Assembly: GCA_020850475.1 (NCBI GenBank)
Contig: JADZEO010000021.1
Location: 1 to 36,893, forward strand
Direction: 5' to 3'
DNA from: Bdellovibrionales bacterium
Lineage (GTDB): Bacteria; Bdellovibrionota; Bdellovibrionia; Bdellovibrionales; UBA1609
DNA: 36,893 nucleotides
A program made the translations under genes and the position numbers. The notes under the pieces are model-generated. The model was not told where the DNA came from, made no database searches, and saw only the letters and a list, made by a program, of their open reading frames with translations. This document shows, piece by piece, positions 4,292 through 36,893 of this stretch (the stretch's first letter is position 1; each line of letters opens with the position of its first letter).

Positions 4292-5937
4292 GCAAGAGCT
4301 TATTTAGTCTAAGTTGGTTAGCAGCATTGGCCCTTACGATTGCGGTCTCGGCTGCAGAGGGTGACAAGGCGGCCCCCACGGGTGAGACCCAAGATGACGT
4401 CCTGAATATTCTTGATGGCAAATCCGATAACGCTGATGCGCTCTTTCAAGAGCGCCAAGAACTGACCATCGCTCTCCGTAAGGAGTTGGGGCAAACGACG
4501 CCAGAGCAGAATATCTTCTTGTCCTTTATGGATCAGAACCAATTTGAAAAGGCCTTGTATCAATGGTGGCCGGCTTTTGAGAAGAAGCCTTTTTTAACGA
4601 CAGCCACCGGCAAAGCCGTGTACGCGTATTTGTTGTTTAAAAACGGCTTAGAATTGAACGGGCTCCAGGCATTGATGGAAATCAAAGAGCCCAAGAAGAT
4701 TCATCCTGATGTCGTTAAGTTGTGGAGGCTCCTCACTCCCGCTGGCCATAGCGCGTGGAGTTTAGTCGATGCTCAATGGACGGACGAGTGGACTGAAGTT
4801 TTTGATGTGGCGACCGAAGTTCAAGTTCGGGCCCGGCAAATGTATGACCCGTCAAATACAGAGAAGATTTTTGAACTTTTGCGCAAGACTAAGCTCGACA
4901 CGCGCGAGCGGGCCTGGCTTGAATGGGAAATGGCTTTGGGGTTGGCTCTGCAAGGAGATATCACTAAGGCAGCGAAGATTTTGTCCCACTTGATGCAAGA
5001 TAAGACGGGCTTAATTTCGCCGGATATTCAGTACGTCACCGCTGCTCGTTTGCTTTATCAGCAAGGCTATTTGGCGCCGGCGATCGGTTATTACCAAAAA
5101 ATCGACAAGAAGTCCGAGTATTGGTTTACGGCTCAAGAAGAGATGGCGTGGTCTTATATTCGTAAGGGTGAGCCACAAAATACCTTGGCTGTGACTCAAA
5201 CCTTGCTGCATAAGGATTTTGCCCCCCATGTGGGACCTGAAGTTTTATTTTTGCGGGCTTTGGCCAACCTCAAGGTTTGTGATTATCCCGCGGTGATCGG
5301 CGCGATTAACTCCTTCCGTGAGCGATTTAAAGAGCGAAGCAAGGTCATGGTGACACTGGCTGAGTCTGGGCAGTCTCCTGATATTGACAAGTTGTTAGCG
5401 GCCTTGCGCAAAGGGCGGGTCAAGCTTTTGAGCCTTGGCCAAAGTGCCGGACGCATTCCCCGGTTTGTCAGCCGCGATGAAGTGTTGCTCGGACTGGTGC
5501 AAGCGCAAATGAGACTGGAGCAAGAGGAAAAGACGGCTGGCGAGATCTACGCTCGGTCGTTGACCGGTGGATCGGATCAAGTGGGCTTTCAGGGGCGCAT
5601 GGAAGAGCTTCGCTTTGGGGCCGAGGCTCGGCAGCAGTCAGCCAAGAGCGCAATTTTTAACCGCATTAAAGACCTCGCCTCAGAAGAGTTGCAGGAGACT
5701 CAGAACATTCTCCAAAAAATGCACATTGTCGAAGCTGAAATGATTCAGCAAATCGCCCAGGCAGAGAGAGTGATTCAAGCCAGTACCAAGCAGCTGATTG
5801 AGAAAAAGGGCTCGACAGGAAGCACAGACAAATTCAGCTTGAAGTTCCCGTTCGATGGGGAGACCTGGTTTGACGAGTTAGCGAACTATAAAGTTGATGT
5901 CAAAAAAGGGTGTCAGGCGAAACGAGGGGGAGAGTAG
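4288..5937 (+). CDS. Exported helical-repeat (TPR-like) protein
   Basis: A 549-residue protein with a signal peptide (about residues 1-22, ending VSA-AE). The mature part is a series of helix pairs typical of TPR-like solenoids, for example around residues 220-330 (WEMALGLALQGDITKAAKIL, LYQQGYLAPAIGYYQKIDKK, AWSYIRKGEPQNTLAVTQTL). A coiled-coil segment follows near 470-515. No catalytic motif is visible. It overlaps both neighbours, the upstream barrel by ATGA and the downstream vWA gene by one base, so all three are coupled. In the Myxococcus glt cluster a TPR protein (GltC) follows the two barrel genes; the same order here supports, but does not prove, an analogous periplasmic scaffold. Confidence 0.8.
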   Translation: MSKSLFSLSWLAALALTIAVSAAEGDKAAPTGETQDDVLNILDGKSDNADALFQERQELTIALRKELGQTTPEQNIFLSFMDQNQFEKALYQWWPAFEKKPFLTTATGKAVYAYLLFKNGLELNGLQALMEIKEPKKIHPDVVKLWRLLTPAGHSAWSLVDAQWTDEWTEVFDVATEVQVRARQMYDPSNTEKIFELLRKTKLDTRERAWLEWEMALGLALQGDITKAAKILSHLMQDKTGLISPDIQYVTAARLLYQQGYLAPAIGYYQKIDKKSEYWFTAQEEMAWSYIRKGEPQNTLAVTQTLLHKDFAPHVGPEVLFLRALANLKVCDYPAVIGAINSFRERFKERSKVMVTLAESGQSPDIDKLLAALRKGRVKLLSLGQSAGRIPRFVSRDEVLLGLVQAQMRLEQEEKTAGEIYARSLTGGSDQVGFQGRMEELRFGAEARQQSAKSAIFNRIKDLASEELQETQNILQKMHIVEAEMIQQIAQAERVIQASTKQLIEKKGSTGSTDKFSLKFPFDGETWFDELANYKVDVKKGCQAKRGGE

Positions 5938-15399: not shown

Positions 15400-15456
15400 T
15401 TTGTTCTCTCTTGTTAGTTGCAAATTAGATGGATGTTAGGTGGTCGCTGTCGTCGC

Positions 15457-15987
15457 TTATTGGTTGCCGTAGAGTTCGTCGTACTTGAAGTACCACTTAT
15501 AGAGCGAAGTGGCTTGAATGCCCTTCCAAAGCTTGGTGCCCTTAAAGCGCGCGACGACCTGCTCTCGATATTTAGCGATGAGAATTCGCGCTAACACAAA
15601 AACAATCGGTGAGAGAATGATCGCCACAACACCACTACCCATCACAATGGAATTATTAAAACGGGTGTAGGGAATAATCGGTAAGTTGTAGAGAGTTGTG
15701 TACAGACCTTGCAGCCCGGCGATCTCAAGGACTGCCCGCCCAGCGCTATCAAACACCGGATCGAGGAGATAACCGGCGAAGGCAAAAAATCCCGCACTCA
15801 GCATGGCGGCTCCGGCTTGGATCCGAAAAAAGAAAATGCAGACAAAGACCAGCAGGGTCTGCAGCGAAAAGGCTGGCGTCATACCCAAAACAAAACCTGC
15901 GGCGATTCCCGCGGCAATTTGATTGGTGCCATTCTCCGAGTTCAACAATTTGAGAAATTGAAAAATCTGCTTCAGCAGTAGTCCCAT
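15457..15987 (-). CDS. TIGR03546 (DUF2062-like) membrane protein
   Basis: A 176-residue protein with three to four hydrophobic segments (about 25-55, 58-80, 110-137). It has the conserved start of the family (FLKLLNSENGTNQIAAGIAAGFVLGMTPAFSLQTL), where G-x-x-P follows an Asn-rich turn as in DUF2062 proteins. The C-terminus is basic and cytoplasmic. It sits 57 bases upstream of the TIGR03545 gene on the same strand, the expected pair. They are probably co-transcribed and may form a membrane complex acting on envelope lipids; this is inference. Its ATG lies 11 bases from one arm of a 34-base inverted repeat. Confidence 0.85.
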   Translation of the reverse strand: MGLLLKQIFQFLKLLNSENGTNQIAAGIAAGFVLGMTPAFSLQTLLVFVCIFFFRIQAGAAMLSAGFFAFAGYLLDPVFDSAGRAVLEIAGLQGLYTTLYNLPIIPYTRFNNSIVMGSGVVAIILSPIVFVLARILIAKYREQVVARFKGTKLWKGIQATSLYKWYFKYDELYGNQ

Positions 15988-15997
15988 GGTTCCTCCG

Positions 15998-16175
15998 AAA
16001 GGTGCCTGCTACTTTTTGTCGGTCACGGTGCGTCTAGTGGGGCCATCGATGAAAACATTTTCCTGATGAACCACTAGGGCGTTATTCTAGTTTGGGATAT
16101 TACCTAGTCAACATGGCCAAGAGGGGATAAGAGTTTGTGATGCACCGTGACCGACAAAAAGTAGCAGGCACCTTT
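15998..16175. repeat. 34-base perfect terminal inverted repeat enclosing divergent promoter region
   Basis: The segment 15998-16031 is the exact reverse complement of 16142-16175. Each arm is a copy of the dispersed repeat (core AAAGGTGCCTGCTACTTT) plus TTGTCGGTCACGGTGC. The 110-base interior contains a second inverted repeat CTAGTGG/CCACTAG (16034-16040 and 16071-16077). The whole block is the 5' region of both TIGR03546 and the GT9 gene, and the right arm encodes the first residues of the GT9 protein. The design resembles a small non-autonomous element or a copied repeat pair. Confidence 0.9.
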
Positions 16176-17126
16176 TCGACTCTAGTAGTGCACACGGCCA
16201 ACATGGGCGATGTCGTGTCGGCTGCGGGGTTGGTGCGCGCTTTGGCCGACACTCGAGGCGGGGTGGAAATCTTGGTGCGTTCTCCTTTTCGCGGACTCTT
16301 CGCGGGAGAAGTGGGAATTCGCGAGATTGGTGAAGATCAGCTTAACCAGAGCGGCCCTTATGAACTGTGTCTTGATTTGGACTCATCTCAGACCAGTCGC
16401 AAAATCATCCGCGAAGTAAAGGCGAATCGAAAAGTGGGGCGTTATCTCAACACCCTGAGGCGACTCAAATACTGGAACCTTTATGACCTCCAGGTGCCTA
16501 AGCACCCAGTAGATCACATCGTGCGCGACTATCAGGTGCTCAGTGAGGCGTTGGAGCTCGGGCCATTGGCGTCGCCCCGCCTTACGCCCCTCGATTTGCC
16601 TGCACACTTGAGCGAGTGGCTCCGTCCCCTCCAAAATTCGGGACGCCCCATCGTGGTTCTGGCACCTGAGGCGGCAAATCCCATTCGTCACCTGCCACCA
16701 CTGTTGGTGGATGATCTCATCGATCAGCTGGTGGCGAGAGGTCGCGCGGTGGTGATGGTGGGTTTGGATCAACCGGCCATGCAGAGATGGTGCGCGCGCC
16801 ATCCCGATTGGGCTTATTGGCGCCCGCTTCAGCTAGCAGCAGTGAAGGCTTTGTTTTCGCACGCGCGCGTGTTCATTGGGCCCGATAGCGGTCCTATGCA
16901 TCTTGCCTGCGCTCTGCAAATGCAAGTGGCGGCCCTGTTTGGTCCGGCCTTGACCAGCAAATGCGGGCCACTGCAAATCAACGGCAAAATCATTGAAAAG
17001 TCGTTTCCCTGTCGGCCTTGCAATCAAAACAAACCCTGTCCGTATGATCGTCGCTGCTTAACCACAATCACCGCTACAGAGGTACTGCAGGGTCTGGGTG
17101 TGATTGACGAACCAGGCGAGAATTGA
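16140..17126 (+). CDS. GT9 (heptosyltransferase-like) glycosyltransferase
   Basis: About 328 residues. The nucleotide-binding N-terminus reads LVVHTANMGDVVSAAGLVRAL, and the C-terminal domain carries the GT9 signature FIGPDSGPMHLACALQMQVAALFGP with VLAPEA before it. This matches ADP-heptose:LPS heptosyltransferases and related enzymes that build the lipopolysaccharide core on the cytoplasmic face. A C-x-x-C-x(4)-C-x(5)-C cysteine set near 290-305 (FPCRPCNQNKPCPYDRRC) may bind metal. The first dozen residues (HRDRQKVAGTFS) are encoded by the dispersed repeat, and no start lies closer to the conserved strand, so the repeat supplies the start codon (ATG 16140 or GTG 16137). Confidence 0.85.
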   Translation: MHRDRQKVAGTFSTLVVHTANMGDVVSAAGLVRALADTRGGVEILVRSPFRGLFAGEVGIREIGEDQLNQSGPYELCLDLDSSQTSRKIIREVKANRKVGRYLNTLRRLKYWNLYDLQVPKHPVDHIVRDYQVLSEALELGPLASPRLTPLDLPAHLSEWLRPLQNSGRPIVVLAPEAANPIRHLPPLLVDDLIDQLVARGRAVVMVGLDQPAMQRWCARHPDWAYWRPLQLAAVKALFSHARVFIGPDSGPMHLACALQMQVAALFGPALTSKCGPLQINGKIIEKSFPCRPCNQNKPCPYDRRCLTTITATEVLQGLGVIDEPGEN

Positions 17127-17138
17127 GAGCGTTAGCTT

Positions 17139-17711
17139 ATGGGACTCCCGCAGCTGGTGTACTGGCTTTGTGATTTGCTAATGTTTCGTCTCCTCGGCTG
17201 GCGGGTTGAGGGGCAACTTCCTCAGGTTCCCAAGTATGTGGCCATAGGAGCGCCTCACACATCCAATTGGGATTTTTTTATTGGAATGGCAGCTTACCAT
17301 CGCCTCAAGATACAATTTCGGTGGTACGGCAAACACACCATTTTCATTTGGCCAGTTGGAGTTCTATTACGAGCGATGGGGGGATTTCCCATCGAACGTG
17401 CCCACCATCATGATGTGGTCTCGGTCGCCATTGCTAAGTTTAAGCGCGAGGATCATTTTATTTTGGCACTCGCTCCAGAAGGCACTCGAGGCAAAGTGGA
17501 CAAATGGAAAACGGGCTTTTACCACATCGCCCTCGGCGCGGGTGTGCCGATTTGCCCTTTTGCTCTCGACTTTGAGCACAAGCGCGTGGTGTGCGGGCAA
17601 CTTTTTTATCCGACAGGGGACAAAGAAAAAGATATCGCCCATCTCCAAGATTTTTTTCGCCAATTTCGGGGGCGGCATCCCGAGCTGGGGTTTCCGCCGC
17701 CCAACCATTAA
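17139..17711 (+). CDS. PlsC-like 1-acylglycerol-3-phosphate acyltransferase
   Basis: A 190-residue protein with a short hydrophobic N-terminus. It has the acyltransferase motif H40-TSNW-D45 (HX4D), the acceptor-binding motif APEGTRGKVDKW with E114-G-T-R, and a late PIC-PFAL segment. These are the hallmarks of PlsC/LPLAT enzymes, which add a fatty acid to lysophosphatidate or a related lipid at the inner membrane. This short, single-domain type is often found with lipopolysaccharide genes, and it starts 12 bases after the GT9 gene, so co-transcription is likely. Its TAA stop (17709-17711) shares bases with a dispersed repeat copy. Confidence 0.85.
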   Translation: MGLPQLVYWLCDLLMFRLLGWRVEGQLPQVPKYVAIGAPHTSNWDFFIGMAAYHRLKIQFRWYGKHTIFIWPVGVLLRAMGGFPIERAHHHDVVSVAIAKFKREDHFILALAPEGTRGKVDKWKTGFYHIALGAGVPICPFALDFEHKRVVCGQLFYPTGDKEKDIAHLQDFFRQFRGRHPELGFPPPNH

Positions 17712-17730
17712 AAGGTGCCTGCTACTTTTT
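17710..17730. repeat. Dispersed repeat copy filling a convergent junction
   Basis: A full copy of the repeat (AAAGGTGCCTGCTACTTT plus flanking A and T) spans the whole gap between two convergent genes. Its first A residues are part of the PlsC-like stop (17709-17711) and its last base is part of the TGA stop of the minus-strand gene (17730-17732). Confidence 0.9.
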
Positions 17731-20618
17731 CATCCCGCGACTACGCCCCGGCACGTGAGAGCAGGTGGGAGCAGCGCGCGGTGGAGGAAAGGCACGACGG
17801 TATTCAAGAACTGGGTGGGCGCACTTTGGTGGATGTAGTGATTTGCGCCGGGAATTGTAAAAAGCTGAGCGTCGGGTAAATGCTGCCGCAAGTGAGCCAG
17901 TCCTTCCGCCGAAATCGCTGAGGTCTTGGGGTTGGCTTGCAGGATGAGAATGGGCATTTTTAGACGGCCCAGCTCTTGAGTGAAGTCTTCGCGGCTGGCC
18001 TGTCCGCGATAAAGGACAGAAACTTTGGGATCAAAGCTCAATTTCAGAGTGCCGTCGGCTCGACGGGTTGTCTGATTTTGCAAGATTGACTGTGCCTTAA
18101 GATTGCCAAAGGTGGGCGCGAGAGTCTGTAGCAGAGCTTCGCCGCTTACAAATTCGACGGGCAAGTCGGCGGCAATTCGCGCACGCTTGACAATTTGCTC
18201 ATTGGTTTCTCGCGAGCGCGCGAGGAGTTCCATGTCCTCAATAATCAGGGCTTTGACTCGTTCAGGATAAAGTGCGGCAAAGCGAGTTGCCGTACGAGCG
18301 CCCATCGAGTGGCCGAGCAAAAAAACCGATTGCAGCTGCAAATGATCAAGGAGAGCGCGCAGGTCTAGAGCCATCGTATTCGTCGAATAGTCTTCACCGC
18401 GAATGGCGGTGTTGCCGTGTCCGCGTTGGTCATAAACGATGACCCTAAAATGCTCGGCCAAGTGGTGTACAACACTGTCAAAGGTGGCGAGCGATGAGTC
18501 CATACCGTGAACGAGTACGAGCGCCGGAGCCGATCTTGAACCATACTCGCGGTAGTTGATTTCTTGCGCCACCAGGGGAACCGGTTGGTCGACATAGAGA
18601 CCGCGCGACAAAATGTACTTTTCAACTAGAGGAGGAACCATTCCGCCAATGCTTTCGCCCTTGGCCAGAGTCTGGCGAATCAAAGTTGAAGAACGCGCTT
18701 GTTCGGAATACACAACCATGCTGTTGGTCTGCAAAAAAGAGATTTGCCGCGACTGTTCCGGTTTTAGGGCTGGCATCGCGTAGCCCGCACGAGCGATCAC
18801 TGCGACTTCGTGCCCCTCTCTCGCGTGTTTTTCTAAGTATCCGGCTTCTAAAAATCGTTCGAACGAATCGGCCCCCATGACGTGGACCAGTTGAGCGCCG
18901 GGAGCGAGGGTTCCGAATAGCCGCTGGAGTGTGGGCCCCGTGCCTTGCTGAAGAAGCGAGTAATAATCAGAAGAAAGAGTCTTCACTTTGGGAATTTCTT
19001 GGGTTCCGAGCCGAATCATCTCCTGCCGATCATGCCAGCCAATGGGAGTTTCATTGTGTTTGGTTTTTACGGTCGGAATGACATAAATTTGATCAAGTCC
19101 CAACGACTCAATGGCGGTCACCAGCAACTGTTGATGGCCCGTGTGAAACGGGTTGAGTACTCCAGTAAAATATCCCACTCGCGGGGCGCTCAGCTTCTTA
19201 GTGAGCTCAACCTGTTCAGTGAGTTTGGCGAGAGGATACAAGCGTGCCACGGCTTCGCGCCAGGCGGCGGGATCACTGGTCGCCTGGTCAGTTCCACCGT
19301 TGGCGGTGGTGGTTTGCAAGGCGGCACGGAGTGAGAGCCAGGCCGCAAGGTCGGCTGACATTTGAGGGTTCTGCCAATAGCCTTGAAGTTGTTTGGCATA
19401 GGCCTTTTGAGCGAGGGCCGTGGCGAGTACCGTGCGCAGGGCCTCCGGGTCAATCGGGGTCACCGACCAACGAGTATTGGCGATGGATTCAACGAGCAGG
19501 CCGGCAATCTGTCTGAGAGCCCACTCCGGCTCCACCAGAGTCACATCAACTAGAAACCTTAAGCGGGCATGAATGGGCGCGCTCTTAATCAGTTCACTGA
19601 GTCTCCCCAGACTACTTGCTTGGAGCGCAAACGCCTCCCGCAGGGTCTCGACTTTAACTTTTGCCAGCGCTTGGTCGAGACTCTGGTCAATCATCTTAAA
19701 AACGCCCCAGCGCAAGAGAATCTGAATCTGCTCGGGTGCAGTTTTGTCGTCGAGGAGTTTAAGCAGGTTTCGGACAATTTGAAGACGATTGGTATTAGTC
19801 GCCTGGGCAATACTCGTTTTTATGTGGGCTTCGTCCGCCCGGCTCAAGCTTTGCTTACCGACTTTGGCCATCGTTCGCGCGACCCGAATTCCATTCAACA
19901 CCGGATCGCGATCGATCTCGTCCCAGTGGATGATCGTGAGATTTTGTTTGCGCCAGGCGGAGTAGCCTTGGAACCGATCAAGCACACCGCCCTCGCGTAC
20001 AACCGTGGCGTAGTCTTTGCCGACTAAACTCTGGCGGAGTCCTTCGATGAAGGATCCTCGAACTGGAATCATGACCGTATCGATGTCAAAAATGCCGTTG
20101 AGTTGCAAATCGGTGACTTGGTGAAAGATAGAAATGTCAAAGATATCGGGTGTACCGCCGAGCCAAAAAAATCCAAACCCCGCGTTGTATCTGTGCCTTT
20201 GCGGGAGCGGGAGAGCGGGGTTTCCGCGTGGCCGCGGTCTGAGATCCTTATCGGAAAACTTCCCCAAGGTCGGAGATTCGAGCTTCTGACCGATGCTTCG
20301 AGCCCAGTCTTCGGTCACTTCGCGGCCAGCGACCACAAAAATGTCGAGGTCGCGCATCTCTAAAGGTTTGCCATCGTAAAGGTGATCAAGAATGGCGCGG
20401 GAACTACCTCCGCCGACGAAGATGTCCTTGATGCCAAAATGCTGGGCGAGGTTCGCTCTAAACTCTTCGATTCGATTCGAGATGGCCGTCAGCTCCGGTG
20501 ACGGGGCCAATCGCGTGAGCGTTTGGGCATAGGCCGAGAAGGGCTGCGCAAAAGAAATGGCAGCAAATATAAAAGCCAGCGCGATCATCGACCGGCAATG
20601 GCGGGTCATTGCACCCAC
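17730..20618 (-). CDS. Exported fusion: nucleotidyltransferase + NadD-like + alpha/beta hydrolase
   Basis: About 962 residues from GTG 20618, which has AGGAG seven bases upstream; the frame stays open to 20666. Numbering below counts from 20666. A signal peptide spans about 20-47 (hydrophobic core, FSAYA-Q). Domain 1 (about 55-200) is nucleotidyltransferase-like: GGGSSR 85-90, then RDLDIF 105-110 with the D-x-D pair. A helical region follows (200-490). Domain 2 (about 495-690) is NMN/nicotinate-mononucleotide adenylyltransferase-like: GVLNPFHTGH with HTGH 508-511, MGADSFERF 597-605, and SSTLIR 659-664. Domain 3 (about 705-965) is an alpha/beta hydrolase: VHGMDSS, GHSMG with Ser787, and GANHYIHQ with His943; the acid residue is not certain. 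The key motifs look intact. A secreted protein with an ATP- or NAD-type enzyme is unexpected. The function is unknown. Confidence 0.85.
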   Translation of the reverse strand: MGAMTRHCRSMIALAFIFAAISFAQPFSAYAQTLTRLAPSPELTAISNRIEEFRANLAQHFGIKDIFVGGGSSRAILDHLYDGKPLEMRDLDIFVVAGREVTEDWARSIGQKLESPTLGKFSDKDLRPRPRGNPALPLPQRHRYNAGFGFFWLGGTPDIFDISIFHQVTDLQLNGIFDIDTVMIPVRGSFIEGLRQSLVGKDYATVVREGGVLDRFQGYSAWRKQNLTIIHWDEIDRDPVLNGIRVARTMAKVGKQSLSRADEAHIKTSIAQATNTNRLQIVRNLLKLLDDKTAPEQIQILLRWGVFKMIDQSLDQALAKVKVETLREAFALQASSLGRLSELIKSAPIHARLRFLVDVTLVEPEWALRQIAGLLVESIANTRWSVTPIDPEALRTVLATALAQKAYAKQLQGYWQNPQMSADLAAWLSLRAALQTTTANGGTDQATSDPAAWREAVARLYPLAKLTEQVELTKKLSAPRVGYFTGVLNPFHTGHQQLLVTAIESLGLDQIYVIPTVKTKHNETPIGWHDRQEMIRLGTQEIPKVKTLSSDYYSLLQQGTGPTLQRLFGTLAPGAQLVHVMGADSFERFLEAGYLEKHAREGHEVAVIARAGYAMPALKPEQSRQISFLQTNSMVVYSEQARSSTLIRQTLAKGESIGGMVPPLVEKYILSRGLYVDQPVPLVAQEINYREYGSRSAPALVLVHGMDSSLATFDSVVHHLAEHFRVIVYDQRGHGNTAIRGEDYSTNTMALDLRALLDHLQLQSVFLLGHSMGARTATRFAALYPERVKALIIEDMELLARSRETNEQIVKRARIAADLPVEFVSGEALLQTLAPTFGNLKAQSILQNQTTRRADGTLKLSFDPKVSVLYRGQASREDFTQELGRLKMPILILQANPKTSAISAEGLAHLRQHLPDAQLFTIPGANHYIHQSAPTQFLNTVVPFLHRALLPPALTCRGVVAG

Positions 20619-20810
20619 AATATAACTCCTGTTGATGGAGTACCCAAAATACCTAACCCAGCCCAAAGAAATGAGGGCTCATCGGGCCTCGATTTGCAAA
20701 CCAGGGGCCGCTGAGTGAATCGCCAGCGCCATTGAATGCGGGGCCAGAGCCACTCCGCCCCTGCCAGACCGGGGGGTAAGGTGGATTTTTCAGACGAGGG
20801 TGAAATTTCG

Positions 20811-20828
20811 AAAGGTGCCTGCTACTTT
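20811..20828. repeat. Dispersed repeat copy after sugar transferase gene
   Basis: Core AAAGGTGCCTGCTACTTT, four bases past the minus-strand stop of the sugar-phosphate transferase gene. The T-run after the core is only three here. The rest of 20619-20832 holds no gene that I can support. Confidence 0.9.
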
Positions 20829-20832
20829 CGAG

Positions 20833-22221
20833 CTAGCGGCCGCGGCCGAGGAGGACGACAGTGGCGGTCTTCAGCAGTACCAACCAGTCGAGGAGCAGCG
20901 AGTAGTTTTTGATGTAGTAGAGCTCATACTGGAGCTTTTCTTTGGCGTCGTCGACGGTGGCGCCATACGGATACATCACTTGCGCCCAGCCGCTGAGACC
21001 TGGGCGCACCAAGTGGCGGTAGTTGTAAAATGGAATCTGGGTGGCCAATTCACCCGTAAATTCGGGGCGCTCCGGGCGTGGACCGATGAAACTCATGTCG
21101 CCGCGAAAAATATTCCAAATTTGCGGGAGCTCATCGATGCGCGAGACCCGCATAAAACGCCCCCAAGCCGTCACGCGGGCGTCGCCTTGTTGGGCCCACT
21201 GGGCGCCATTTTTCTCGGCGTCTTGGCGCATGGAGCGAAACTTATAAATGATAAAGTCGTGGCCATTAAGCCCACAGCGGCGCTGCGAGTAAATGATCGG
21301 CCAGCCGCTGGTAATTAAGACCATCAGTGAGGCGATCAACATTAACGGCAGAGCCAGGATCAAGATAATTCCGGCGCAAAAAATATCACCAACCCGCTTT
21401 AGGCGCAGTCCAATGGGGTTGTGAAGGAGGCTAAATCCTTGGCTCAGGGCGAACCAACTATTTTCGAGGTAAAAGACGGGAACTTTGCGCCAAACGGCCT
21501 CGTAAAAATCCGAGAGATCGTAAACGCGCGTGCCGTGAAAGCGTGCATCCATCAATTTCTCGACGAGATTTTCGGGAATTTTTTGGCCCGTGGCAATCAC
21601 GATCCCGCGCCAGGGTTGTTTGAGAAATTCATCGACGTCTTGCCAACTGCCTTTGACGTATTTTTCGAAACCGCTAAAGTTTTCGGCGTCCGGCTCAAAT
21701 CGATTTTGCGTTAGGCAGGTGAGTTGCACGTCGTGCGGGGATTTTTCGTAATCGCGCAAAAAGTGCTGCAAATAATCGCGAGTGCCAATGATGAGCCAAC
21801 GCGACTGCTGTTCAAGTCTTTTGACTCGCGCATGGAGGACAATTCGCCAAAACGCGGACCAAACAAAAAACAAAGCGTACGATCCCATGAGCACACCGCG
21901 ACCGGTGAGACCGCCGAAACCCTTCAAGCCCACGAGGTAGGCGCCCACGACCACCGTTGCCGCTGCGATGACCAGTGCGGCCGCGAGCCGGGCCAGGTCC
22001 CGCAAAAAGTGCAATCGATCTTGAAGTTTGTAAACGTCGAACACGTACATCAGGAGCAGCGTGAAGGCGAGGCAGGGCACCAGCTTAAGCCAGAGATCCA
22101 TCCCCACCCAATGTCCCAGGCGCACGTAGTAAGCCGCCTGAAAGGCCGCAAAAAACCCCACGCCATCAAGTAAGACGAGGATTATTTTGTAAAACGGGGC
22201 CGGGCTAAAGCGGTTGGACAT
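20833..22221 (-). CDS. Polyprenyl glycosylphosphotransferase (WbaP/WcaJ-like)
   Basis: A 462-residue membrane protein. Four to five hydrophobic segments lie in the first 130 residues, followed by a Rossmann-like soluble part (SRWLIIGTRDYLQHFLRDYEKS), a fifth membrane helix near 280-305, and the catalytic C-terminal domain. The catalytic region has YKFRSMRQDAE, SRIDELPQIWNIFRGDMSFIGPRPERPEF and RPGLSGWAQV, all family signatures. It transfers a sugar-1-phosphate from a UDP-sugar to undecaprenyl phosphate, the first step of exopolysaccharide or O-antigen assembly. The UDP-sugar epimerase gene lies upstream on the same strand (267-base gap, with a repeat copy between). This is the priming enzyme for a surface polysaccharide made in this region. 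Confidence 0.9.
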   Translation of the reverse strand: MSNRFSPAPFYKIILVLLDGVGFFAAFQAAYYVRLGHWVGMDLWLKLVPCLAFTLLLMYVFDVYKLQDRLHFLRDLARLAAALVIAAATVVVGAYLVGLKGFGGLTGRGVLMGSYALFFVWSAFWRIVLHARVKRLEQQSRWLIIGTRDYLQHFLRDYEKSPHDVQLTCLTQNRFEPDAENFSGFEKYVKGSWQDVDEFLKQPWRGIVIATGQKIPENLVEKLMDARFHGTRVYDLSDFYEAVWRKVPVFYLENSWFALSQGFSLLHNPIGLRLKRVGDIFCAGIILILALPLMLIASLMVLITSGWPIIYSQRRCGLNGHDFIIYKFRSMRQDAEKNGAQWAQQGDARVTAWGRFMRVSRIDELPQIWNIFRGDMSFIGPRPERPEFTGELATQIPFYNYRHLVRPGLSGWAQVMYPYGATVDDAKEKLQYELYYIKNYSLLLDWLVLLKTATVVLLGRGR

Positions 22222-22248
22222 AGTGAAGCGAATTTACCGCAATCTTTG

Positions 22249-22268
22249 AAAGGTGCCTGCTACTTTTT
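22249..22268. repeat. Dispersed repeat copy upstream of sugar transferase gene
   Basis: AAAGGTGCCTGCTACTTTTT lies 28 bases upstream of the minus-strand start of the sugar-phosphate transferase gene, in its 5' region. Confidence 0.9.
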
Positions 22269-22409
22269 CGCAAAGAGTGGTGCAATGCATCGAGCTCCGG
22301 GAAGCGGACCAACAAGGGATTGAAAACCCGTCCGATGGTTTTTTAAGGATGGCGAAGAACTTGCTCAAGTGGGGAGTCATCACATTCCACTCCTTATTCG
22401 GTGAGCTGG

Positions 22410-22436
22410 TAGGCCCTGGGCGATCCCCGGGGCCTA
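22410..22436. repeat. GC-rich interrupted hairpin between epimerase and transferase genes
   Basis: Arms TAGGCCC (22410-22416) and GGGCCTA (22430-22436) pair, with GGG and CCC pairing inside around a CGAT loop. There is no T-run on either strand, so it is not a typical terminator. The rest of 22269-22488 has no gene. Confidence 0.5.
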
Positions 22437-22488
22437 TCGGCCTATTTCGACCGATCGAGCGCCCCTTAAATTTTTCGGGCACGTAGCA

Positions 22489-23457
22489 TTAGAGCAAAAG
22501 CTCTTTGAGCCCCTCGCGGAGTGAGATGTGGGGGCGAAAGCCCAAGGCCTTCTGGGCCAGTCCTGACGATCCGAGTGAGCGGTAAATGTCGCCAGCGCGA
22601 AAGGCTTGAAATTCGACCTGCGGAGCGGCTCCGCTTGGGTGGAGTTCCTTCCATAATTCCGCCAAAGTCGACGTGAGCAATTTGAGATTTGTTTCAGTTC
22701 CAGAACAAATATTAAAGACCTGACCCTTGAGAGCCTGGCCCTCGGGAGCGAGCCCGACCTGCAAATTGACGGCAGCCACATCTCGAACGTGAACAAAATC
22801 GCGCGTTGAAGTGCCGTCACCATAGACAAGCATCGGTTGACCACCCTTGATCGCGGCCACCCATTTGGGGATGACAGCGGCATACGCTCCCTCGGGATCT
22901 TGTCGGGTACCAAAAATGTTAAAGTAGCGAAAGCCCACCGTCTCCAGTCCATAATGACGGGCGTACTGCTCGGCATAGAGCTCATTGACTCGCTTGGAAG
23001 CCGCGTAGGGTGACAGCAAGGCGCCTAAATCGTTCTCGGTTTTTGTGGCTGCCGGGTGATCACCATAAACGGCGCTGCTTGAGGCATAAACCACGCGCTT
23101 GACTTGATGAGTACGGGCCGCCTCAAGCACATTAAGAAAACCAGTCACATTGACTTCGTGGGCTTCGCGGGGATTTTCAATACTCTTCGGCACCGAGGCC
23201 ATGGCCGCATGATGCAAAATCACATCGGCACCACGCACCACCTTGTCCACTGCTCTGGCGTCACGAATGTCTTCGCAGACAAAGACAAAGTTTTTGCGGG
23301 TGCCGTTGGGGAGGGCGCTCAGAAACCCTTCGAGGTTTTCCCACTTTCCCGACGACAAATTGTCGAGGCCCACCACGTGGTGCCCTTGGCGAATCAGAGT
23401 CTCCACCAAGTGCGACCCCACAAATCCTGCAGCTCCAGTCACCACCCATCGTTTCAT
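22489..23457 (-). CDS. NAD-dependent UDP-sugar epimerase (UDP-GlcNAc 4-epimerase-like)
   Basis: About 322 residues from ATG 23457 (MKRWVVTGAAGFVGSHLVETL). The NAD-binding motif TGAAGFVG is at about 7-14, the SSSAVYG motif and catalytic SPYAASK are in the middle, and RYFNIFGTRQDPEGAYAAVIPK and STRDFVHVRDVA match the WbpP/Gne type. This short-chain dehydrogenase interconverts UDP-GlcNAc and UDP-GalNAc (or the uronates) in polysaccharide synthesis. The frame is open upstream to 23736, but that extension translates a dispersed repeat (KVAGTF) and is not family-like. No good ribosome site precedes 23457. It probably supplies the sugar donor for the transferase downstream on the same strand. Confidence 0.85.
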   Translation of the reverse strand: MKRWVVTGAAGFVGSHLVETLIRQGHHVVGLDNLSSGKWENLEGFLSALPNGTRKNFVFVCEDIRDARAVDKVVRGADVILHHAAMASVPKSIENPREAHEVNVTGFLNVLEAARTHQVKRVVYASSSAVYGDHPAATKTENDLGALLSPYAASKRVNELYAEQYARHYGLETVGFRYFNIFGTRQDPEGAYAAVIPKWVAAIKGGQPMLVYGDGTSTRDFVHVRDVAAVNLQVGLAPEGQALKGQVFNICSGTETNLKLLTSTLAELWKELHPSGAAPQVEFQAFRAGDIYRSLGSSGLAQKALGFRPHISLREGLKELLL

Positions 23458-23480
23458 AAGTTGGGTGTACCGTACGGACG

Positions 23481-23540
23481 AAAAGGTGCCAGCTACTTTT
23501 TGCTTGAAGCGCGGTGTTAATTGAAAGTAGCAGGCACCTT
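23481..23540. repeat. Inverted pair of dispersed repeat copies
   Basis: A + copy with one change (GGTGCCAGCTAC, 23481-23501) faces a reverse copy (AAAGTAGCAGGCACCTT, 23524-23540), 22 bases apart. The transcript of either strand could fold into a stem of about 17 pairs. It lies between the epimerase and carboxypeptidase start regions, which are divergent. Confidence 0.9.
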
Positions 23541-23583
23541 CTAGCATTGGCAGCGGAGGACATTGGCAGTAGGCTCGGCGGCT

Positions 23584-34816: not shown

Positions 34817-34882
34817 AACGCACGATCACGCACCTTTAAAAGAAGTAGCAGGCACCTTTACAAGAAGTAACAGGCACCTATC
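34817..34882. repeat. Tandem copies of the dispersed repeat
   Basis: Three 22-base units: one degenerate (ending GCACCTTTA at 34838), one full (AAGTAGCAGGCACCTTT, 34843-34859), one with GTAA (AAGTAACAGGCACCTA, 34865-34880). Arms GCAACGC (34815-34821) and GCGTTGC (34887-34893) flank the array as an inverted repeat. It lies between the small membrane protein gene and the TolC-like gene. Confidence 0.85.
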
Positions 34883-36334: not shown

Positions 36335-36893
36335 ATGAAAGCAAAACAAGCCAACCTTTTTGATTACTTTGATACTCGTCAGACCCGTAAGCGTTATGGG
36401 CGCACCCAACACGGTGGGGTCGAAACCAAAGGGCACCGAAAGCTTGAGAGACCACTTTCAACTACTCGTCCGATACATCTCGTCTTAAAGTCTCATAAGG
36501 CGACTGGATGCCTGAGTTTTCTCACTCATAAGAATAAACCCGTAGTCGAGGGGATCATTCGGGAGAAGGCGAGAAAATTTGGTGTGCGCATCTGTCAGTT
36601 TGCCAACGTTGGCAATCACCTTCATCTGAAAATTCGCATTGCCTCGCGGCCGCTGTTTCAAGCCTTTTTGGTGTCGGTCACCACTTTAATCGCTCGAACC
36701 CTCACGGGCGCCCGGCGGGGTAAAAAGTTTGGCAAGTTTTGGCAGGGCCAGGCTTTTACTCGCGTTTTGGTGTCGCGACGAGAGGAACTCAATTTGTTTG
36801 GCTACATCAAAGCCAATCAAATCGAAGGGCAGGAGTCGAAGGCGGCGAGAGAAATATACTTAGAAAAATTCCACCGCTGGGTGTACCGGGAAC
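36335..36893 (+). CDS. REP-associated tyrosine transposase (Y1/HUH), partial
   Basis: The frame from ATG 36335 stays open to the window end (186 codons), so the C-terminus is missing. NHLHLKI with H95-L-H97 is the HUH metal-binding motif of Y1 transposases, and LFGYIKANQ with Tyr157 matches the catalytic Tyr and downstream Asn of the RAYT/IS200 group. The N-terminus (GRTQHGGVETKGHRKLERPLSTTRPIHLVLKSHKA) resembles that of RAYT proteins, which are single-copy, domesticated relatives of IS200 transposases that act on short palindromic repeats. No flanking IS ends are seen. The gene has its own promoter and 32-base tandem repeats upstream. Confidence 0.85.
   Translation, partial: MKAKQANLFDYFDTRQTRKRYGRTQHGGVETKGHRKLERPLSTTRPIHLVLKSHKATGCLSFLTHKNKPVVEGIIREKARKFGVRICQFANVGNHLHLKIRIASRPLFQAFLVSVTTLIARTLTGARRGKKFGKFWQGQAFTRVLVSRREELNLFGYIKANQIEGQESKAAREIYLEKFHRWVYRE

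Follow-up and report, generated by a model that had tools for sequence, protein, structure and literature searches.

The described systems that come closest to the structure reported here are short dispersed repeats linked to transposases of the RAYT type. In the part of PMC3733652 that concerns them, the TIR repeats of TIRYT genes ("TIRtrons") are inverted repeats that flank RAYT-type genes and form moderately abundant dispersed families; they often occur as dimers and some are self-complementary. For REPINs, the passages of PMC3116915 drawn on here report that singlets are outnumbered by doublets and less well conserved. Measured against these accounts, the locus that we analysed resembles REPINs in having two inverted copies with a short spacer, together making one hairpin, and in its RAYT link, which here runs through relatives of the source genome (PMC3116915), and it resembles TIRtrons in that the repeat is dispersed and its copies are arranged in dimers (PMC3733652). 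It also recalls the GTAG/CGTC REPs, as portrayed in the relevant parts of PMC3733652, PMC6006769 and PMC8266576, being a short intergenic repeat that is palindromic in relatives, carries an extra one-sided motif and has a RAYT neighbourhood. With the ends of IS200/IS605 elements, as far as PMC6006769 outlines them, it shares a hairpin, a linker and a short motif as possible cleavage site, the enzymes being of the HUH Y1 class. We estimate at roughly two in three the probability that the block is a transposase-less, REPIN/MITE-like inverted dimer of a RAYT-linked dispersed repeat.

The window, that is the whole stretch of 36,893 nucleotides that was analysed, is contig C21 of a 3.9-Mb Bdellovibrionales genome assembled in 175 contigs. 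Its relevant features are the following:

15457 to 15987, minus strand: DUF2062 / TIGR03546 gene; by eye, a GGAGG is seen between its start codon and arm 1
15998 to 16034, plus strand: arm 1, a single copy of the repeat with its core at 15998-16017, its spacer at 16018-16029 and a box-like GCGTC at 16030-16034
16035 to 16138, no strand: inter-arm loop of 104 bases
16139 to 16175, minus strand: arm 2, a single copy of the repeat with its core at 16156-16175, its spacer at 16144-16155 and a box-like GCATC at 16139-16143
16140 to 17126, plus strand: glycosyltransferase family 9 (heptosyltransferase-like) gene, with an ATG inside arm 2
17711 to 17730, plus strand: single repeat copy between two converging genes
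20811 to 20828, plus strand: single repeat copy
22249 to 22268, plus strand: single repeat copy
23482 to 23541, no strand: second inverted pair of the window, with copies starting at 23485 (plus) and 23538 (minus)
34842 to 34881, minus strand: two tandem mutated repeat copies

The inverted repeat at 15998-16175 is real and stands far above chance. Its arms, 15998-16034 and 16139-16175, are 37 nt long, complementary at 36 of 37 positions (97%) and 104 nt apart; the outer 34 bases of both arms are perfect and 110 nt apart, which bears out the 34-base perfect inverted repeat of the preliminary description. No perfect inverted repeat of the window whose arms are less than 250 bases apart is longer, and the best value reached by 50 dinucleotide-preserving shuffles of the window was 18. 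When folded as RNA with 10 flanking bases per side, the block gave -95.9 kcal/mol with the arms paired; each arm alone does not fold (-2.2 and -2.5 kcal/mol; z +0.9 and +0.7, no better than shuffles). The inner CTAGTGG/CCACTAG pair that had been proposed does exist (16034-16040 and 16071-16077), but it lies off-centre, beside arm 1, and its two halves, 30 bases apart, do not continue the stem of the arms when read by eye. By eye, the loop has a frame of five codons at 16112 that could recall a RAYT start; it was not used as evidence. The 178-base block, for which a genome search had been suggested, occurs only once in the genome, and no direct repeat longer than 3 bases that could be a target-site duplication was found at its ends, shifts of up to 3 being allowed.

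Both arms are individual copies of a dispersed repeat, and hence the "extra 16 bases" by which the arms had been said to extend other copies are the second half of the repeat copy itself. The extension is unique to the arms within the window, but in the genome a copy at C151:21393-21429, with an 89% match to the arm across 38 positions, has most of it. Nor is the 34-base identity special to this block, as the inverted pairs on contigs C77 and C71 match equally well or better.

The repeat has a 20-base core, AAAGGTGCCTGCTACTTTTT, after which comes a spacer of some 12 variable bases; a subset of the copies then carries a GCRTNA-like box. The 15-base core GGTGCCTGCTACTTT is present in 49 copies in the genome at no more than 1 mismatch, 44 of them exact, compared with one for the reversed control; the core is almost invariant across copies and the flanks are variable. 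Searched as GC[AG]TNA at +26 to +38, the box was found in 14 of these 49 copies, which include related copies within C156 and within C126, the figure for each of seven windows from +40 onward being 0-2 of 49; as written, it is missing from 35 of 49. In relatives it occurs in 10 of 54 rows, a set that includes both strands of perfect palindromes, versus 0-1 of 54 in control windows. By crude open-frame calls, 13 of the 49 cores lie entirely within an open frame. The copies are clustered, with eight on C126 (9.3 kb), six on C156 (11.8 kb) and eight on C21. Literature searches with the exact core strings returned no bacterial-repeat paper by title, which is no proof that the family is unpublished, and searches pairing Bdellovibrio with related terms gave titles on other subjects among the matches listed.

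Reading the copies at no more than 2 mismatches within the fetched stretches yielded 51, comprising eight inverted doublets, seven copies in tandem groups and 28 lone copies, for which no other copy lies inside 250 bases (although at least 5 of them are near a contig end, where a partner may be cut off). The 12 cases of neighbouring copies within 250 bases display a clear orientation bias: in eight the copies are inverted, always core-outside and never core-inside, and in four they are tandem. The pair at 15998-16175 is therefore accompanied by seven further inverted pairs, and the small mobile unit with terminal inverted repeats that had been suggested holds as to form, with the core outside in 8 of 8 inverted neighbours, but mobility was not borne out. 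The balance of the two classes differs from that of REPINs as the excerpted account has it (PMC3116915), since lone copies outnumber inverted doublets 28 to 8 and lone cores are no less conserved (exact in 26/28 lone copies versus 14/16 doublet copies), the doublet criterion being a 15-mer and 250 bases here and a 16-mer and 400 bases there.

Over the 20 bases after the core, identity was 11.9/20 within pairs and 6.5/20 between pairs, the within-pair sum being reached by none of 20,000 permutations; this effect stems from four or five of the pairs. Arm agreement over these 20 bases was 19 for C77, 18 for C71, 17 for the pair at 15998-16175, 12 for C10, 9 for C147, 8 for the second window pair, 7 for C65 and 5 for C29, and in three of the eight (C29, C65 and the second window pair) the arms agree no better than unrelated arms. 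The loops of the eight pairs are mutually unrelated, and no dimer was seen spreading as a unit. Given this locus-specific matching of arms together with unrelated loops, the well-matched pairs look as though they were formed or homogenised at their own sites, and the earlier proposal of a recent duplication or gene conversion agrees with spacers being more alike within pairs than between them. The locus-specific spacers shared in several pairs point to local inverted duplication or to hairpin homogenisation. Outward matching does not decide between the two: the matching runs of the eight own pairs (0, 0, 3, 3, 4, 8, 0, 1) exceed permutations (P = 0.0014; P = 0.06 over 15 outer bases), and symmetry outside the palindromes of relatives is within the shuffle range (41 rows; mean run 2.78, against 2.39 in shuffles, sd 0.23, largest 3.29).

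That the mirrored arm could be an assembly artefact is suggested by the 175 contigs of the assembly and by the ending of C15 and C54 just past a copy; yet there are eight inverted pairs, with different loops and on seven contigs, and other assemblies, too, contain a related dispersed repeat. This explanation is scarcely credible. The two contigs in question, C15 (L066, near 5883-5930) and C54 (L037), end a few bases past a copy with an identical spacer, and these copies may represent both arms of a single pair at which the assembly broke.

With respect to its immediate setting, arm 1 lies directly upstream of the GGAGG that precedes the start of the DUF2062 gene, a start that is kept in relatives. 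The ATG at 16140, within arm 2, is probably the start of the heptosyltransferase-like gene, GTG at 16188 being the alternative. A sigma-70-like match (10/12; 0.3 expected in shuffles) is located in the loop on the minus strand, at 16111-16084, directed toward DUF2062. No terminator-like site was found in 15900-16300, and a comparison of 15400-16800 with Rfam gave no match at E <= 1. These features do not demonstrate regulation of either flanking gene, and any such effect would be conjectural. The stretch from one inverted pair of the window to the other (16137-23541) contains genes of the heptosyltransferase-like, acyltransferase, sugar-transferase and epimerase kinds.

An old hairpin that selection has maintained, for instance as a two-way transcription terminator or as an RNA hairpin of the flanking transcripts, would agree with the strong RNA fold of the block and with the position of four of the eight pairs (C65, C71, C77 and C147) between converging genes. 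By the same crude open-frame calls, however, three pairs, among them the one at 15998-16175, are between diverging genes and one is between genes of the same direction. The lack of a terminator-like site and of an Rfam match in the stretches just given, and the fact that 28 of 51 copies have no neighbour inside 250 bases, also argue against such a hairpin; moreover, transcription starting in the loop would presumably put one arm on each transcript. We consider this explanation unlikely.

Two contigs carry copies of uniform orientation among small toxin-antitoxin-like genes: six on C156 (L065, 7138-11275), all on the plus strand, and eight on C126 (L062, 1490-6296), all on the minus strand. The frames adjoining both arrays read like polysaccharide-synthesis genes. 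In a family search that covered ten chosen frames, 4 of 5 intervals on C156 held a frame over the Pfam cut-off (Gp49 or helix-turn-helix families), while C126 had one GNAT frame over the cut-off and two other frames matching below it. The genome has three Gp49 matches, two of them on C156. Same-orientation copies with such genes between them are what favours integron-like recombination sites of the attC kind bounding gene cassettes. This is nevertheless very improbable, because the integrase model TIGR02249 gave 14 matches in the genome with none over its cut-off, and below-cut-off matches in 14 of 14 control genomes too, because attC end motifs were not seen by eye, and because most repeat copies are outside such arrays. 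It is just as doubtful that the repeat acts as a boundary gathering one toxin-antitoxin module per interval into the uniformly oriented arrays of C156 and C126, integron-like but with an HUH transposase and no integrase.

The reading of the block as an inverted dimer of a RAYT-linked repeat draws on the relatives of this genome. Among 140 genomes searched in the order, the exact 17-base core was found in one, the source genome alone, and the same block with diverged arms was not seen in relatives, the exact core being absent from the 139 others. A scan of named genomes detected the 20-base core on two contigs of one Bdellovibrionales MAG and on one contig of a Chitinophagaceae MAG, with 29 copies and 1 copy, respectively, at no more than 2 mismatches over 18 bases. 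In the former MAG (L104-L112), CTCC and CTAC variants of the core coexist, and by eye the spacer of some copies holds an additional small hairpin. Certain genomes of the phylum carry a palindromic sister core, GGTGCCTGGCACC, in tens of copies. The degenerate core AAGGTGCCTGNNACNTTTT was present in 27 of 368 genomes of the phylum, including the source (reversed control, 0), with the highest counts in G063 (38), the source genome (32), G004 (29) and G073 (21); most of its occurrences, among the places listed, read GGTGCCTGGCAC.

In six genomes carrying the degenerate core we found 19 RAYT-type loci. At four of these 19 (L136, L140, L146 and L149), copies of the sister palindromic form bracket the RAYT match at a distance of about 760-790 bases from each other, which for this form recalls TIRtrons as far as PMC3733652 describes them in the part used; in the remaining 15 of 19 the core was not found on both sides. 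In the three of these loci that were read (L136, L140 and L149), the spacers point inward at the transposase gene, as in the mobile-unit form. Two flanked-locus proteins scored 66.2 and 79.4 bits against NCBIfam REP_Tyr_transpos, just under the cut-off of 80. The palindromic cores of relatives fold strongly, the two tested giving -14.7 and -12.1 kcal/mol. As the core of relatives folds and flanks RAYT genes with its spacer inward, we read the block as a transposase-less derivative of that arrangement. The near-invariant core with varying flanks would also suit a binding site of a host protein (an operator, a chromosome-organising or a DNA-uptake site) multiplied by selection and not by transposition; the clustering of copies on C126, C156 and C21, the absence of the exact 17-mer from the 139 other genomes of the order, and the sister form flanking transposase genes render this quite improbable.

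For an inverted dimer linked to a RAYT, a mover in the source genome was sought. PF01797 gave eight matches there. Seven RAYT proteins used as queries, two of them from kin of unflanked loci, found no good match (best E 1.2e-4). No good core copy lies beside the scanned RAYT-like loci, where there were two weak matches only (L160 and L161), several of these stretches ending at contig ends of the 175-contig assembly; nor was the CTAC-form repeat seen to flank a RAYT in the scanned loci, some of which are cut by contig ends. The repeat in this genome is therefore an orphan, or its RAYT sits in an assembly gap. A weak RAYT-like match on C40 (L154) was considered as a decayed RAYT and rejected, since the frame reads like an RNA methyltransferase. 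Comparison of the pair interiors with 42 RAYT-locus stretches gave two matches, of 13 and 14 bases (E 0.08 and 0.05). A second RAYT-like type is present in several copies in the source genome (L054-L059), one of them running off the end of the window (about 36336-36893); by eye, several have short tandem repeats up- or downstream, different in each.

The search for an empty site used the DUF2062 loci of relatives, of which 14 were fetched and 13 examined (L017 was left out) over about 1.5 kb upstream each. It gave no orthologous empty site, because no upstream frame of at least 80 residues matched the window in these 13 relatives. Since neither a flanked-kind RAYT nor an empty site nor a target duplication was found, and a single copy does not fold, mobility of the dimer is something that we infer.

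On this basis, a RAYT (HUH, Y1) may have bound the folded core in single-stranded DNA and may have cut near the distal box, the putative cut site; the RAYT that served the repeat would presumably be of the kind flanked in relatives. The dimer would have come to rest between the DUF2062 and heptosyltransferase-like genes, so as to lie now beside one ribosome-binding site and over the probable start of the other gene. The arms could be alike because the second copy was made from the first on the spot; alternatively, the two sides of the hairpin may template each other's repair.

Several points set the locus apart from the described systems. The GGGGWSAS of some TIRs reported in the TIRtron part of PMC3733652 is not in the arms, by eye, and the repeat was not found beside a transposase in the source genome. 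In contrast to REPINs (PMC3116915, in the passages concerned), no flanked-kind RAYT was found in this genome. Unlike the GTAG/CGTC REPs of the sources partially drawn on above, no GT[AG]G was seen at the hairpin foot and no such tag is conserved at the core edges (column counts), the box is about 12 bases off the core, and the core here forms no stable hairpin. IS200/IS605 ends, as sketched in PMC6006769, differ in that no transposase lies between the arms here, where cleavage is putative. The difference from classical MITEs is that no target-site duplication of more than 3 bases was found at 15998-16175, the sole pair examined for one. As doublets do not predominate and no cognate RAYT was found, we regard the locus as a variant of the REPIN/TIRtron layout and not as a member.

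Overall, the novelty is modest and lies in a core that is without symmetry of its own here and is yet present in dozens of near-identical copies. The repeat family belongs to the Bdellovibrio phylum, adjoins RAYT-type genes in some relatives and has a distal box set off from the hairpin by about 12 bases. In the source genome the single copy has lost its hairpin, and inverted pairs still form one. The pairs that share locus-specific spacers make the origin of REP doublets a testable question.
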